Assembly: GCA_013298595.1 (NCBI GenBank)
Contig: JAAFIG010000022.1
Coordinates: 13,765-77,764, forward strand
Length of the DNA: 64,000 nt
Direction of reading: 5' to 3'
From: Deinococcales bacterium
GTDB lineage: Bacteria > Deinococcota > Deinococci > Deinococcales > JAAFIG01
The position numbers were made by a program, and so were the translations under genes. Position 1 is the stretch's first letter. Each line of letters begins with the position of its first letter. Below are positions 27,968 through 32,297 of the stretch, piece after piece. The notes under the pieces were generated by a model. The model worked only from the letters and a program-made list of their open reading frames with translations. It did no database searches and was not told the DNA's origin.

Positions 27968-29065
27968 TTATTTGTACATACTGGCTTTTTTCTTGGTTGC
28001 CAATTCCCAAACGCTATAATCCACAGCACCTTTATCTGGAGCTTTCTTCAACACACCAAGGTCTACCAGCATATCAGTGTTGGCTTTATACACAGCTGGA
28101 TCTAGGAAACCAGCAAAGCCTTTCAGGGTTGGACCGCTGTAATACAACTTAGCAATTTCTTTCATTTGCCATGTTTGGTGATCTCGAGCATCTATTGAGC
28201 CGCTGCCATTGCAGGTCTTACCGCATTTTGGCAAGACAATATCAACTGCACCACCTTGGTTTTGCACCGACCAATTCCAGCCTTTGATGCTGGCTCTGAG
28301 CAAACGCGCAGCCACATCTTTGCCGCTCATGCCAGAACCTTTGAAGTTCTTATCGGCAAGCACTTTTTCGGGAGCAAACATCAAATCCTCGAGTAAGTTC
28401 ACACCCATATCTGGCAGTGGCATGACATTGAGTTTATTGAGTGGGAAACCAAGCCCAACAATTTGATTGACTTCGTTGTAGGTCATGGCAGAAACAGCGT
28501 CCACTTTGTCCGGGAAAACCAGTGCGGGATCGAAATTAAACGAAATTGCAGTGATATCAGGGCTGGCAACACTCGAGTCTAAGCTGGTGGTCATACCCGC
28601 TTTTTTAGCAAGGGCAATAATTGGTAATTCGTTACCAAAAGGCCATACGCCAACTTTTTTACCTTTTAAGTCGGCAACGGTTTTAATGCCGCTACTGGCA
28701 AGCGTTACTAGGGTAAAACCAGATTTTTGGAACATCTGACCAATGTGCACCACTTTCTGCCCTTTTTCACGATTGATTAAAAAATCGGTAATCCAAGTGG
28801 TACCAAAATCGGCTGCACCAGACAACACAGCATTGACAGGTGGGGCATCACCAGCAGGAATCAAGGTGACTTCCAGACCTTCGTCTTTATAGTACCCTCG
28901 AGCTTGGGCAGCGAAATACCCAGCGAATTGTGCTTGTGGAAACCATTTTAATTGCAGTTTCACTTGCACAGGTTTTTTCATCTGCGCTTGGGCATTGCCA
29001 ATCATGGCAGCGCCTGCCAGACCAGCGGTGAGAAGAGCGGCACTTGCTAACACGGCTTTCTTCAT
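27968..29065 (-). CDS. ABC transporter substrate-binding protein, NMT1/THI5-like
   Basis: 365 residues; signal peptide MKKAVLASAALLTAGLAGA and AGGAGG upstream. The family signature VKLQLKWFPQAQFAGYFAAQ and EGLEVTLIPAGD place it with ThiY/RibY-type binding proteins for pyrimidine precursors of thiamine or for riboflavin. A Cys pair (KCGKTCNGS) near residue 290 may form a disulfide. Last gene of an ATPase-permease-permease-binding protein operon. No TPP or FMN riboswitch is visible ahead of the operon, so the substrate remains open. Confidence 0.85.
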   Translation of the reverse strand: MKKAVLASAALLTAGLAGAAMIGNAQAQMKKPVQVKLQLKWFPQAQFAGYFAAQARGYYKDEGLEVTLIPAGDAPPVNAVLSGAADFGTTWITDFLINREKGQKVVHIGQMFQKSGFTLVTLASSGIKTVADLKGKKVGVWPFGNELPIIALAKKAGMTTSLDSSVASPDITAISFNFDPALVFPDKVDAVSAMTYNEVNQIVGLGFPLNKLNVMPLPDMGVNLLEDLMFAPEKVLADKNFKGSGMSGKDVAARLLRASIKGWNWSVQNQGGAVDIVLPKCGKTCNGSGSIDARDHQTWQMKEIAKLYYSGPTLKGFAGFLDPAVYKANTDMLVDLGVLKKAPDKGAVDYSVWELATKKKASMYK

Positions 29066-29083: not shown

Positions 29084-30109
29084 TTAATCCTCGGCGCGGA
29101 ACGAACTGTGCCAACCGGTGACTCGACGCTCAAGTAATGCCAGTAGATTATAAACGGTAATTCCTAAAAAACTAGCAACCACAATCGCAGCCCAAACAGC
29201 ATCCAAGCTAACCGTGCCAATTTCGACCACAATCCGAAAACCTAAACCCGAACCATTGGCACCAAAAAACTCGGCAACAATTGCCGAAATTAACCCCAGC
29301 ACCGCTCCTGTTTTTAAGCCCGTAAAAATAAACGGCATGGCATTTGGTAAACGTAAACTCTGAAAAGTCCGACGCGAATCGGCTGCGTAAGAACGCATTA
29401 AATCCACTTGCAGCGGATTGACCTCGGTTAACCCTCGAGCCGTATTTAGCAGCATTGGGAAAAACACGGTAATCGCTACAATCACCGCTTTGGATTGCCA
29501 ATCCACCCCCATCGCCCGAATCACCACAGGTGCCAGCGCCACAATCGGCACACTCGAGAACAAAGTCGCATACGGCATTAAGCCTCGCTCGAGAAACGGG
29601 TATCGCTGCGTGGCAATTGCCATCAGCACACCAAGTGAACCGCCAGCCACAAACCCAACAATCGTCTCGAGTAACGTTGTGCTGGTGTCACGCCAAAGCA
29701 CATCTCGAGCTTCCCAGAGGCGTTGCACCACCAGACTTGGTGGCGGAATTTGCGCCAGTGGCACTGCGTAGCCACGCACCAACCCTTCAACAGCAATCAG
29801 CACCACCACGGCTAACAAACCTGCAGGCAGCAACGCCACCAATTGCCGTTGTAACCAATCGGCATTATCCTTGGCTTTCGGACGAGCTAAAAACCGCACC
29901 ACAGCACTTGAAGCCAAAGCCACACCCAGTAAACCCAGCAACAACCACGCATACAACCAAATTAAATCCGATGACTGCCACGCCTCGGTCAAAGCGAACC
30001 GATCAGCAATTAATTTCAACGAAAAAAACGCAGAGCCAAGCACACAAACCACTGCTAAAACAATTAAATTCGTCTCGAGGAAACTGGGTTTTAACGCACG
30101 CGTCGCCAC
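29084..30109 (-). CDS. ABC transporter permease (second of two)
   Basis: 341 residues, seven or eight membrane helices. The BPD_transp_1 EAA loop reads MRSYAADSRRTFQSLRLPNAMPFIFTGLKTG. Forms the channel with the permease at 30091, whose 3' end it overlaps by 19 bases. Importer for the ligand of the NMT1-type binding protein. Confidence 0.9.
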   Translation of the reverse strand: MATRALKPSFLETNLIVLAVVCVLGSAFFSLKLIADRFALTEAWQSSDLIWLYAWLLLGLLGVALASSAVVRFLARPKAKDNADWLQRQLVALLPAGLLAVVVLIAVEGLVRGYAVPLAQIPPPSLVVQRLWEARDVLWRDTSTTLLETIVGFVAGGSLGVLMAIATQRYPFLERGLMPYATLFSSVPIVALAPVVIRAMGVDWQSKAVIVAITVFFPMLLNTARGLTEVNPLQVDLMRSYAADSRRTFQSLRLPNAMPFIFTGLKTGAVLGLISAIVAEFFGANGSGLGFRIVVEIGTVSLDAVWAAIVVASFLGITVYNLLALLERRVTGWHSSFRAED

Positions 30110-30945
30110 GGAGTCACCAACCTTTCCACCACACCAACCAACGCCACCAACGCAATCCCCAACGCCGCACTACCAAACATCACCAACCATAAACTCCGCG
30201 AATCCGAAGCCCTCGAGTTCTCCGACAATAACCGCCCCAAACCAGCATCGGTAATCGTACTCGACTCCGAAACAATCGCCCCAATCAGCGCCGCTGTCAT
30301 CGCAATTTTAAACGCCGTAAACAAAAACGGCACACTGGCAGGAAACCGCAACTTGGCAAACATCTGCACCGAACTGGCGTTATACGTCCGCATCAAATCC
30401 ACCTGCAACAAATCCGGACTTTTCAAACCCTTCGCCACCCCAACCGCAATCGGAAAAAACGCAATATAGGCACTAATCAACACCTTCGGCAACAACCCCT
30501 GCACACCATTAGAACCAAGCACCACCGCCAACATCGGCGCAATCGCAATCACAGGCACCGTCTGTGAAGCCACCAACCAAGGCAACACCGCCCGCTCAAA
30601 CGCCCTCGAGACAGTCAACAACACCGCCAAACCAAGCCCAACCACACCCGCTAACAACAAACCCAACACCGTTGCTAACGCCGTAAAAAAACCATGAAAC
30701 GGAATCGAATTCGGATCAGTTAACGGAAAAAAAGCCTTAGGAAAATCCTCGAGCAACTGATTCGGCGCAGGAATCACAGGAGAACGCAAATTAAAGGCAC
30801 AAGACAACGCCGAACCACACGGCAACTCCGCCCCGCGATCCAACAAACGCTGCGCCGACTGCGCATTCAAAAACACCATCAGCGGAAACGAAAGAACAAC
30901 AACAACAAGAGCCACTGTTAACATAGGAATAAACGATTTATTCAT
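30091..30945 (-). CDS. ABC transporter permease (first of two)
   Basis: 284 residues from ATG 30945 (GAAGG upstream). Six membrane helices and the EAA loop LMRTYNASSVQMFAKLRFPASVP. An extracytoplasmic stretch near residues 45-60 has a Cys pair (ELPCGSALSCAF). Separated from its ATPase gene by the DUF559 insertion at about 30987-31442. Confidence 0.9.
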   Translation of the reverse strand: MNKSFIPMLTVALVVVVLSFPLMVFLNAQSAQRLLDRGAELPCGSALSCAFNLRSPVIPAPNQLLEDFPKAFFPLTDPNSIPFHGFFTALATVLGLLLAGVVGLGLAVLLTVSRAFERAVLPWLVASQTVPVIAIAPMLAVVLGSNGVQGLLPKVLISAYIAFFPIAVGVAKGLKSPDLLQVDLMRTYNASSVQMFAKLRFPASVPFLFTAFKIAMTAALIGAIVSESSTITDAGLGRLLSENSRASDSRSLWLVMFGSAALGIALVALVGVVERLVTPWRRVR

Positions 30946-30986
30946 GCGTGTACCTTCGAGGGAAATGTGGAAAAGATGTCGCTGCA

Positions 30987-31063
30987 AACCCTCTCCCCCA
31001 ACCCCTCCCCCGCGCAGCGCGGGGGAGGGGCGTTCAAGCGAAGCGCGAACCGGGGAGAGGGTT
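30987..31063. mobile_element. GC-rich nested inverted repeat attached to a DUF559 gene
   Basis: Outer arms AACCCTCTCCCC (30987-30998) and GGGGAGAGGGTT (31052-31063) pair perfectly over 12 bases. Inside them are perfect 14-base arms CCCCTCCCCCGCGC / GCGCGGGGGAGGGG (31002-31015 and 31017-31030), and a GTTC...GAAC pair at 31032-31050. The base composition is far more GC-rich than the surroundings. The DUF559 gene starts 23 bases downstream. The whole lies within an ABC operon. Confidence 0.75.
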
Positions 31064-31073
31064 GCCCGTCACG

Positions 31074-31079
31074 TATACT
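31074..31079 (+). promoter_or_regulatory. -10 box of the DUF559 gene
   Basis: TATACT ends six bases before GTG 31086, the spacing of a leaderless start in this genome; it sets the start within a much longer open frame. Confidence 0.5.
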
Positions 31080-31085
31080 GAATTC

Positions 31086-31442
31086 GTGCCTAAGGCGTAT
31101 CTGACAAGATTGGCTCGAGAGAATCGGCGAGCACAAACGCCTGCTGAGGCGATTTTGTGGGAAGCTTTGCGGCGCAAAAATTTTGCTGCTATCAAGTTCA
31201 AACGTCAGAAACCCATTGGGCGTTACATCGCAGATTTTTGTGCGCCTAGTGCAAAATTGATTATTGAATTGGATGGCAGTGTGCACGATTCCACGGATGC
31301 TCGAGCTTATGATGCTGTGCGAACCAGTTTTCTCGAGGCGGCTGGGTATCGTGTGCTGCGTTTTGGTAATCAGGTTGTACTCGAGGATTTGGCTTCTGTG
31401 CTCGGGGTGATTGCTGGGGTTGTTCATACTTCTTCCTCGTAG
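31086..31442 (+). CDS. DUF559 (Vsr-like endonuclease fold) protein
   Basis: 118 residues. The DUF559 pattern is complete: RRAQTPAEAILWEALRRKNF, IKFKRQKPIGRYIADFCAPS, LIIELDGSVHD, and the end EAAGYRVLRFGNQVVLEDL. The conserved Asp of ADF and the E-x-D-G-S-x-H motif match the PD-(D/E)XK core shared with Vsr nucleases. It is oriented against the ABC operon in which it sits, and its last codons overlap the end of the ATPase gene by 19 bases. Likely a selfish or mobility-linked endonuclease; no activity has been shown for most of the family. Confidence 0.85.
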   Translation: MPKAYLTRLARENRRAQTPAEAILWEALRRKNFAAIKFKRQKPIGRYIADFCAPSAKLIIELDGSVHDSTDARAYDAVRTSFLEAAGYRVLRFGNQVVLEDLASVLGVIAGVVHTSSS

Positions 31443-32239
31443 CCATGTCCGTGGCGGAGGCTTTCGCGGACTTCGGTAGCGATTTCAAAGAATCTTGGGG
31501 TTTCTCTGGTGTCGAAGTTGCGTGGTTGTGGTAAGTCTACGTTGATGATTTTTTCGATTTTTCCAGGGCGTGGTGTCATCACTACAATGCGAGTGGATAA
31601 AAACACAGCTTCGGGGATGCTGTGCGTAACAAAGATAATGGTTTTGCCTGTTTCGCGCCATAAGCGTAATAACTCGAGGTTGAGGTTTTCTCGAGTGATT
31701 TCGTCGAGAGCACCAAATGGTTCGTCCATGAAAATCAGTTGTGGGTCAAACGCCAAGGCTCGAGCAATACTGGCGCGTTGTTGCATACCACCTGATAATT
31801 GCCACGGGTAATTACGAGCAAATTTTTCGAGTCCAACGAGTTTTAACATTTTTTCGGCTCGAGTGATGCGTTCTTCTTTGCTAAATCCCATGATCTCGAG
31901 GGGCAGCATGACGTTTTGTTGTACGGTACGCCAGTCGAATAGCGCTGGGGCTTGGAAAACATAGCCGTAAGCTCGAGATTCTCTGGCTTGTTGCGGGGTT
32001 TTCCCACCAATCAGCAAAGACCCTTTGCTTGGTTGGATTAAATCGGCAAGTAAGCGTAACAGCGTGGTTTTGCCACAACCCGAAGGTCCGATCAGACTGA
32101 TAAATTCGCCTGTGCCAATTTCGAGATTAGCGTCTTTTAAAGCGATGGTCTCGAGGGCTTGTCCGCGTGAATCCTTGGTTTTGTAGATCATGCTGACATC
32201 TTGAACAGATACCAACAGAGATGATGTTTGAAGTGCCAT
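31424..32239 (-). CDS. ABC transporter ATP-binding protein (SsuB/TauB/ThiZ type)
   Basis: 271 residues from ATG 32239. Walker A GPSGCGKTTLLRLL, Q-loop YVFQAPALFDWRTV, signature LSGGMQQRASIARAL, Walker B LIFMDEPFGALDE, and the switch His in FVTHSIPEAV. First gene of the importer operon continued at 30945. Ends GHGYEEEV, the final bases being shared with the opposing DUF559 gene, so the terminal residues may have been altered by that insertion. Confidence 0.9.
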   Translation of the reverse strand: MALQTSSLLVSVQDVSMIYKTKDSRGQALETIALKDANLEIGTGEFISLIGPSGCGKTTLLRLLADLIQPSKGSLLIGGKTPQQARESRAYGYVFQAPALFDWRTVQQNVMLPLEIMGFSKEERITRAEKMLKLVGLEKFARNYPWQLSGGMQQRASIARALAFDPQLIFMDEPFGALDEITRENLNLELLRLWRETGKTIIFVTHSIPEAVFLSTRIVVMTPRPGKIEKIINVDLPQPRNFDTRETPRFFEIATEVRESLRHGHGYEEEV

Positions 32240-32297
32240 GCAAGAACATACCAAGTTTTGACGCACTACGGCAAAGGGGTGGCAGAAAGCAATCGTA

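Follow-up and report, generated by a model that had tools for sequence, protein, structure and literature searches.

Between the ATPase gene and the first permease gene of an ABC importer operon of the aliphatic-sulfonate/nitrate/NMT1 type, the genome of a Deinococcales bacterium carries a small nuclease gene in the opposing orientation, preceded by a GC-rich nested hairpin, which raises the question of what this unit is and whether the enzyme and the palindrome belong together. The 64-kb stretch of DNA analysed (hereafter the window) probably contains one copy of a widespread element in which a DUF559 gene is associated with BoxC/PIT/TM repeats, the nuclease likely cutting and spreading these palindromes in a REP/RAYT-like manner. 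Known since the 1990s, BoxC/PIT/TM repeats occur in hundreds of genomes, including that of E. coli, and destabilise their loci, and an account of their origin has so far been missing. The evidence considered here comprises the observed linkage, inverted flanks, co-occurrence, empty site, unit copies, co-divergence and active-site conservation; that DUF559 proteins recognise, cut and mobilise TM repeats is what we infer from it.

The insert in the importer operon

The hairpin is a 77-bp unstranded palindromic element (30987..31063). Its outer stem, 12 bp long and perfect (30987-30998/31052-31063), surrounds both an equally perfect inner stem of 14 bp (31002-31015/31017-31030) and a further small stem-loop (31032-31050). 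The two nested stems are present as the initial annotation had described them, and the 83-nt hairpin stretch has a folding energy, as DNA, of -36 kcal/mol, whereas shuffled versions average -17.8 (z -7.7) and 0 of 200 fold as well. On the plus strand follows the gene for a PD-(D/E)XK nuclease of the DUF559 family (PF04480; 31086..31442, 118 aa), which has a likely GTG start and whose frame extends 19 nt into the 3' end of the ATPase gene. In the window unit, only the upstream flank of the nuclease gene bears a hairpin. The host genes lie on the minus strand in the order initially proposed: the importer ATPase (ABC_tran; 31424..32266), then, beyond the insert, permease 1 (30091..30945, with a likely ATG start at 30945 and a TTG start at 30987 that falls inside the hairpin), permease 2 (29084..30109) and an NMT1/THI5-like substrate-binding protein (27968..29065). 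A foreign composition is confined to the hairpin; the nuclease gene has the local GC content and four of the iterated CTCGAG palindromes of this lineage, which mark it as an old resident. Rfam gave no match within the 64-kb window, and the PADLOC defence models gave weak matches only.

CTCGAG itself is a highly iterated palindrome comparable to cyanobacterial HIP1, with 393 sites in the 64-kb window against 6.3 expected from shuffles. In the loci compared, its density is 6.6-8.5/kb in four genomes of the window's family, 6.2 in a sister family and 0.4-2 in others. A TATACT box also lies just 5' of the DUF559 GTG (31072-31088) and reads TACACT in the sister species (G001, L033); its retention ahead of the GTG suggests a leaderless promoter between the hairpin and the nuclease gene.

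Comparison with relatives delimits the insert to about 30946..31423 (unstranded) relative to the ancestral ATPase-permease junction, so that 30987, earlier taken as the start of the unit, is the edge of the hairpin. Empty sites are found in G003, G015, G019, G025, G037, G057, G008 and G012, that is, in G003 and every other relative with a readable junction, and the arrangement is therefore not fixed across the phylum. The ATPase stop and the permease start overlap or are directly adjacent in G003, which belongs to the same family, and in other families of the order. Inserts of 440-600 bp with DUF559 and hairpin are found only in the source genome (G000), in G001 of the same genus and in G002 of the same family; given this distribution, the unit most simply appears to have entered the importer junction once, in the window's family. 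It would have entered this tight junction before the two genera split, keeping a one-sided hairpin and an intact nuclease. The supposed rewriting of the last ATPase codons is not supported: relatives with or without the insert share the ATPase ending of the window, GYE followed by three residues and a stop (GYEEEV, GYEVDE, GYEVTE and GYEGNE), and the stop position is the same. The sequence ATGAA(C/T)AA is repeated at both insert borders, as ATGAACAA at the ATPase end (31420..31427, minus strand) and ATGAATAA at the permease start (30938..30945, minus strand), which match at 7 of 8 positions. These candidate halves could represent a target-site duplication, but the two genes also require the letters for their stop or start, which leaves the reading ambiguous.

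The 77-bp hairpin is one of four dispersed copies in its own genome, on contigs C15, C20, C48 and C12. The three further copies, which do not adjoin a DUF559 gene, are those on C20 (96%), C48 (interrupted by an insert) and C12 (still palindromic, with a shorter inner stem). Two further DUF559 genes of this genome (L002 on C45 and L003 on C23), one of them truncated, each lie beside another hairpin type. The hairpins of L002 and L003 belong to differing sequence families, so at least three types of nuclease and hairpin coexist in this genome.

Probable assignment of the hairpin to the BoxC/PIT/TM repeats

By its letters, the window hairpin appears to belong to the BoxC/PIT/"triplex motif" (TM) repeats, with a loop and a spacer longer than the consensus. 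The published consensus is CCCTCNCCC N3-6 GGGNGAGGG N3 GGGNGAGGG (PMC4666352), and the window carries the three-block motif CCCTCCCCC-N-GGGGGAGGG-N-GGGAGAGGG (30989..31029, minus strand), an exact match to the relaxed TM consensus for which the reversed-pattern control gives 0. All blocks are exact, but the loop has 9 nt instead of 3-6 and the spacer 5 nt instead of 3, so that only the relaxed pattern matches this copy. The backward pattern has no match in the window's phylum.

TM repeats have been reported from more than 260 genomes, with 23 copies, including five inverted pairs, in E. coli MG1655; their loci in E. coli are highly unstable, undergoing small deletions and mutations, the E. coli motif forms an intrastrand triplex in vitro, and PIT elements have neither promoter nor terminator activity (PMC4666352). 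The same study, the largest on these repeats, states explicitly that it found no mobility gene near them (PMC4666352). In E. coli, a BoxC located 168 bp past the 3' end of the DUF559 gene ycjD fits a relaxed TM pattern, and a degenerate BoxC overlaps the 3' end of the gene. Hairpins beside DUF559 genes are mostly this motif or close variants of it, as with the BoxC adjoining ycjD; the known repeats, however, have been described without a mobility gene or a functional link to a neighbour, whereas a partner nuclease is proposed here. In the open-access literature searched, no report linking DUF559 or ycjD to BoxC/TM was found.

The DUF559 nuclease

The gene product was initially assigned a Vsr fold, which the predicted structure supports. 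It matches DUF559 with E = 9e-35 and 119 bits (gathering cut-off 20.6), and its AlphaFold model (pLDDT 89) has as its best solved counterpart a DUF559 protein of Neisseria (Z 16.2), followed by the catalytic domain of the homing endonuclease I-Bth0305I (Z 13.3, rmsd 2.6, 95 residues) and by Vsr (Z 11.2), with lower scores for TnsA and Holliday-junction resolvases (Z about 7-8). Within the conserved core, R40, D50, E61, G64 and H67 are invariant and D63 is conserved at 90% or more, and with these residues invariant or nearly so the window copy is probably an active nuclease.

Association of hairpins with DUF559 genes

The co-occurrence of hairpin and DUF559 gene, proposed as a check on the window unit, extends far beyond the source genome. 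Of 80 DUF559 loci from many phyla, surveyed for pyrimidine-purine GC hairpins, 65% have one no more than 150 bp upstream and 68% have one no more than 150 bp downstream; past 450 bp the share falls to 0-5%. With a limit of 200 bp, hairpins occur on either side in 60 of 74 multi-phylum loci and on both sides in 40 of 74, and beside DUF559 genes in 25/26 cases in Burkholderiales and 17/22 in Deinococcota; distant flanks of DUF559 genes have one in 3/142 (~2%). With pyrimidines at 11 of the 13 positions of its stem arm, the window hairpin itself falls just short of the survey threshold, so these counts are conservative. The two flanks of one DUF559 gene are mutual inverted repeats in 55 of 100 loci, against 1 of 82 for flanks 1 kb out.

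Such hairpins might be supposed to be ordinary, either terminators of transcription or palindromes that happen to lie next to small genes, and some are indeed located downstream of genes. The controls refute this explanation, to which we attach next to no credence: upstream hairpins are as frequent as downstream ones (52/77 and 53/77), asparagine synthase genes have none (0/19) and permease genes few (3/22), PIT elements lack the corresponding activities, as noted above (PMC4666352), and the reversed-pattern control gives 0 in nearly every genome. Association with any Vsr-fold nuclease was likewise ruled out, as the Vsr genes of the same 250 Burkholderiales genomes have no such hairpins (0/27).

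At the level of genomes, TM repeats are present in 57 of 72 Burkholderiales with DUF559 and in 31 of 178 without it (250 genomes; OR 18, p = 4e-20, statistics that ignore kinship), with a median of 11 copies versus 0; the consensus TM is absent from 15 of the 72 DUF559 genomes. Vsr does not co-occur with TM in the same order (OR 1.2, p = 0.62). In Deinococcota, TM is found in 6/16 genomes with DUF559 and 9/95 without (p = 0.008, again ignoring kinship), and all genomes with at least two copies have DUF559. Across several phyla, 36 of 50 DUF559 genomes carry the consensus TM, in up to 129 copies and with 0 for the control pattern; those lacking it are mostly Bacteroidota, several of which have a hairpin variant. 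Palindromes without the gene are dispersed in the same genomes in up to hundreds of copies, and among the pairs listed for Burkholderiales that are less than 200 bp apart, 26 of 28 are in opposite orientation, as in REPINs. Across 108 loci, protein identity correlates with hairpin similarity (Mantel r 0.45, with a maximum of 0.16 in 500 permutations), a correlation that arises partly through shared descent; in family f1, the hairpin type tracks the nuclease type and not the genome.

Units at unrelated loci and inside genes

The sister species G001 contains two units (L035 and L037) with 86% identical proteins, which are alike from hairpin to hairpin and have unrelated flanks; the ends of L035 are perfect inverted repeats of 41 bp, separated by about 0.5 kb, and the 3' end of L037 is disrupted. 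Similarly, L002 in the source genome and L039 in G001 encode 77% identical nucleases and share a hairpin type, with different neighbours. No target-site duplication is seen at L035 or L037 and no conserved one was found, nor is there a transposase among the ten proteins scanned as neighbours of solo or duplicated copies. Transport by phages or plasmids was considered and set aside: at the limit used, DUF559 was detected in just 3 phage records out of 50,697 and 46 plasmid records out of 72,556.

Units are also found within coding genes. In two genomes (G180 and G255), an asparagine synthase gene contains in-frame TM arrays, a DUF559 gene and further TM arrays at one site and a TM-only array at a second. 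In a further genome of the genus of G180 (G310), without a consensus TM and, at the limit used, without a DUF559 match, a plain linker occupies the first site and one decayed TM the second. Similar in-frame units lie in large genes resembling DNA methylases (L016 and L073; genes named by eye). In the asparagine synthase loci of G180 and G255 (L196 and L202), the in-frame arrays add long Pro-Ser-Gly-rich stretches (PSPPTPLPAGEGSGPHPQPLSQGERG) to this housekeeping enzyme at two sites, one of which holds the embedded nuclease.

Relation to known systems and alternative explanations

The RAYT/REP system has been defined by linkage, flanks in inverted orientation, solo copies scattered over the genome, doublets and the co-divergence of enzyme and palindrome (PMC2817692, PMC3116915). 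DUF559 genes resemble it in being flanked by inverted palindromes, which are dispersed as inverted doublets or clusters, and in the co-divergence of enzyme and palindrome; flanking on both sides is seen in the 40 of 74 loci above and at L035 and L037, and the window copy has the upstream hairpin alone. The enzyme there is an HUH tyrosine transposase (IS200/IS605, PF01797) and here a PD-(D/E)XK Vsr-fold nuclease, the palindrome here is a three-block purine/pyrimidine motif, and several nuclease copies often occur per genome. Because the transposase family differs, the DUF559-hairpin system is, as far as sequence comparison can tell, one that works like REP/RAYT without being a member of it, with cleavage and mobilisation put forward as its probable mode. 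The initial impression of a selfish nuclease travelling with structured DNA, following REP/RAYT logic with another enzyme, is accordingly supported by the wide co-occurrence and the empty sites.

Vsr-like homing endonucleases are found within introns or inteins, and each homes to a single site. I-Bth0305I of this group has the nearest characterised fold after the DUF559 structure itself, but DUF559 units have palindromic ends and occupy many sites, and the window gene is free-standing in an intergenic insert. The very-short-patch repair endonuclease Vsr (PF03852) shares the fold and the catalytic core, but has neither adjacent hairpins nor TM co-occurrence. MITEs, which rely on the transposases of their parent IS, and Rickettsia palindromic elements, for which we know of no driver, are likewise short palindromic repeats, some of them in frame in coding genes; the terminal inverted repeats typical of IS and MITEs are seen at L035, and the window copy has its one-sided hairpin.

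The occurrence of the nuclease gene, in many unrelated bacteria, beside hairpins that are dispersed over the same genomes suggests that this enzyme is the missing driver of BoxC. In complete units, palindromes of opposite orientation lie on either side of the gene, and solo palindromes, often in inverted pairs, would be non-autonomous copies. The nuclease probably recognises the hairpin or triplex palindrome in single-stranded DNA, as at a replication fork, and nicks or cuts it, whereupon repair or strand transfer would place new copies of the palindrome alone, or of palindrome and nuclease together, elsewhere in the genome. RAYT transposases are thought to play the same role for REP sequences. 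More tentatively, and with somewhat more doubt than belief, DUF559 units may be regarded as a new class of very small (~0.5-kb) mobile elements, autonomous and powered by just one PD-(D/E)XK nuclease acting on hairpin or triplex DNA, with the BoxC/PIT/TM repeats of several phyla as their non-autonomous offspring.

The main rival, which we judge unlikely, holds that TM repeats spread or persist by another route, such as replication slippage or another enzyme, and that DUF559 genes only insert at these palindromes or recombine between them, the nuclease being cargo or using the hairpins solely as landing sites. The 31 of 178 DUF559-free Burkholderiales genomes with TM, the small deletions and mutations at unstable E. 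coli TM loci (PMC4666352) and the exchangeability of ycjD with an efflux operon are in keeping with it, but TM copy number follows the presence of DUF559, hairpin type follows nuclease type both in family f1 and overall, the inverted flanks form bounded units, and the TM relic in the DUF559-free genome is single and decayed. Less probable still is a host function, in which DUF559 would remove or resolve hairpins or triplexes, as Vsr repairs mismatches, and would be kept where TM repeats are many and adjacent to them through autoregulation; such a role would fit the Vsr-like fold and would produce co-occurrence from need, but leaves unexplained the two-sided inverted hairpins, the several nuclease copies per genome, the units inside coding genes and the like-ended units at unrelated loci.

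If a nuclease that spreads palindromes is indeed the partner of these repeats, a common domain of unknown function would acquire a function, and a second, independent enzyme family would do for palindromes what RAYTs do for REPs. A partner nuclease also makes TM spread testable in E. coli K-12, which has ycjD and 23 copies. No clean ycjD empty site was found in the E. coli genomes examined, because strains without the gene carry the efflux operon there: in the fabI-sapF interval (L072 and E. coli genomes), ycjD with BoxC alternates among lineages with the 8-kb eefRABCD efflux operon, a swap that has been published (PMC12817139).
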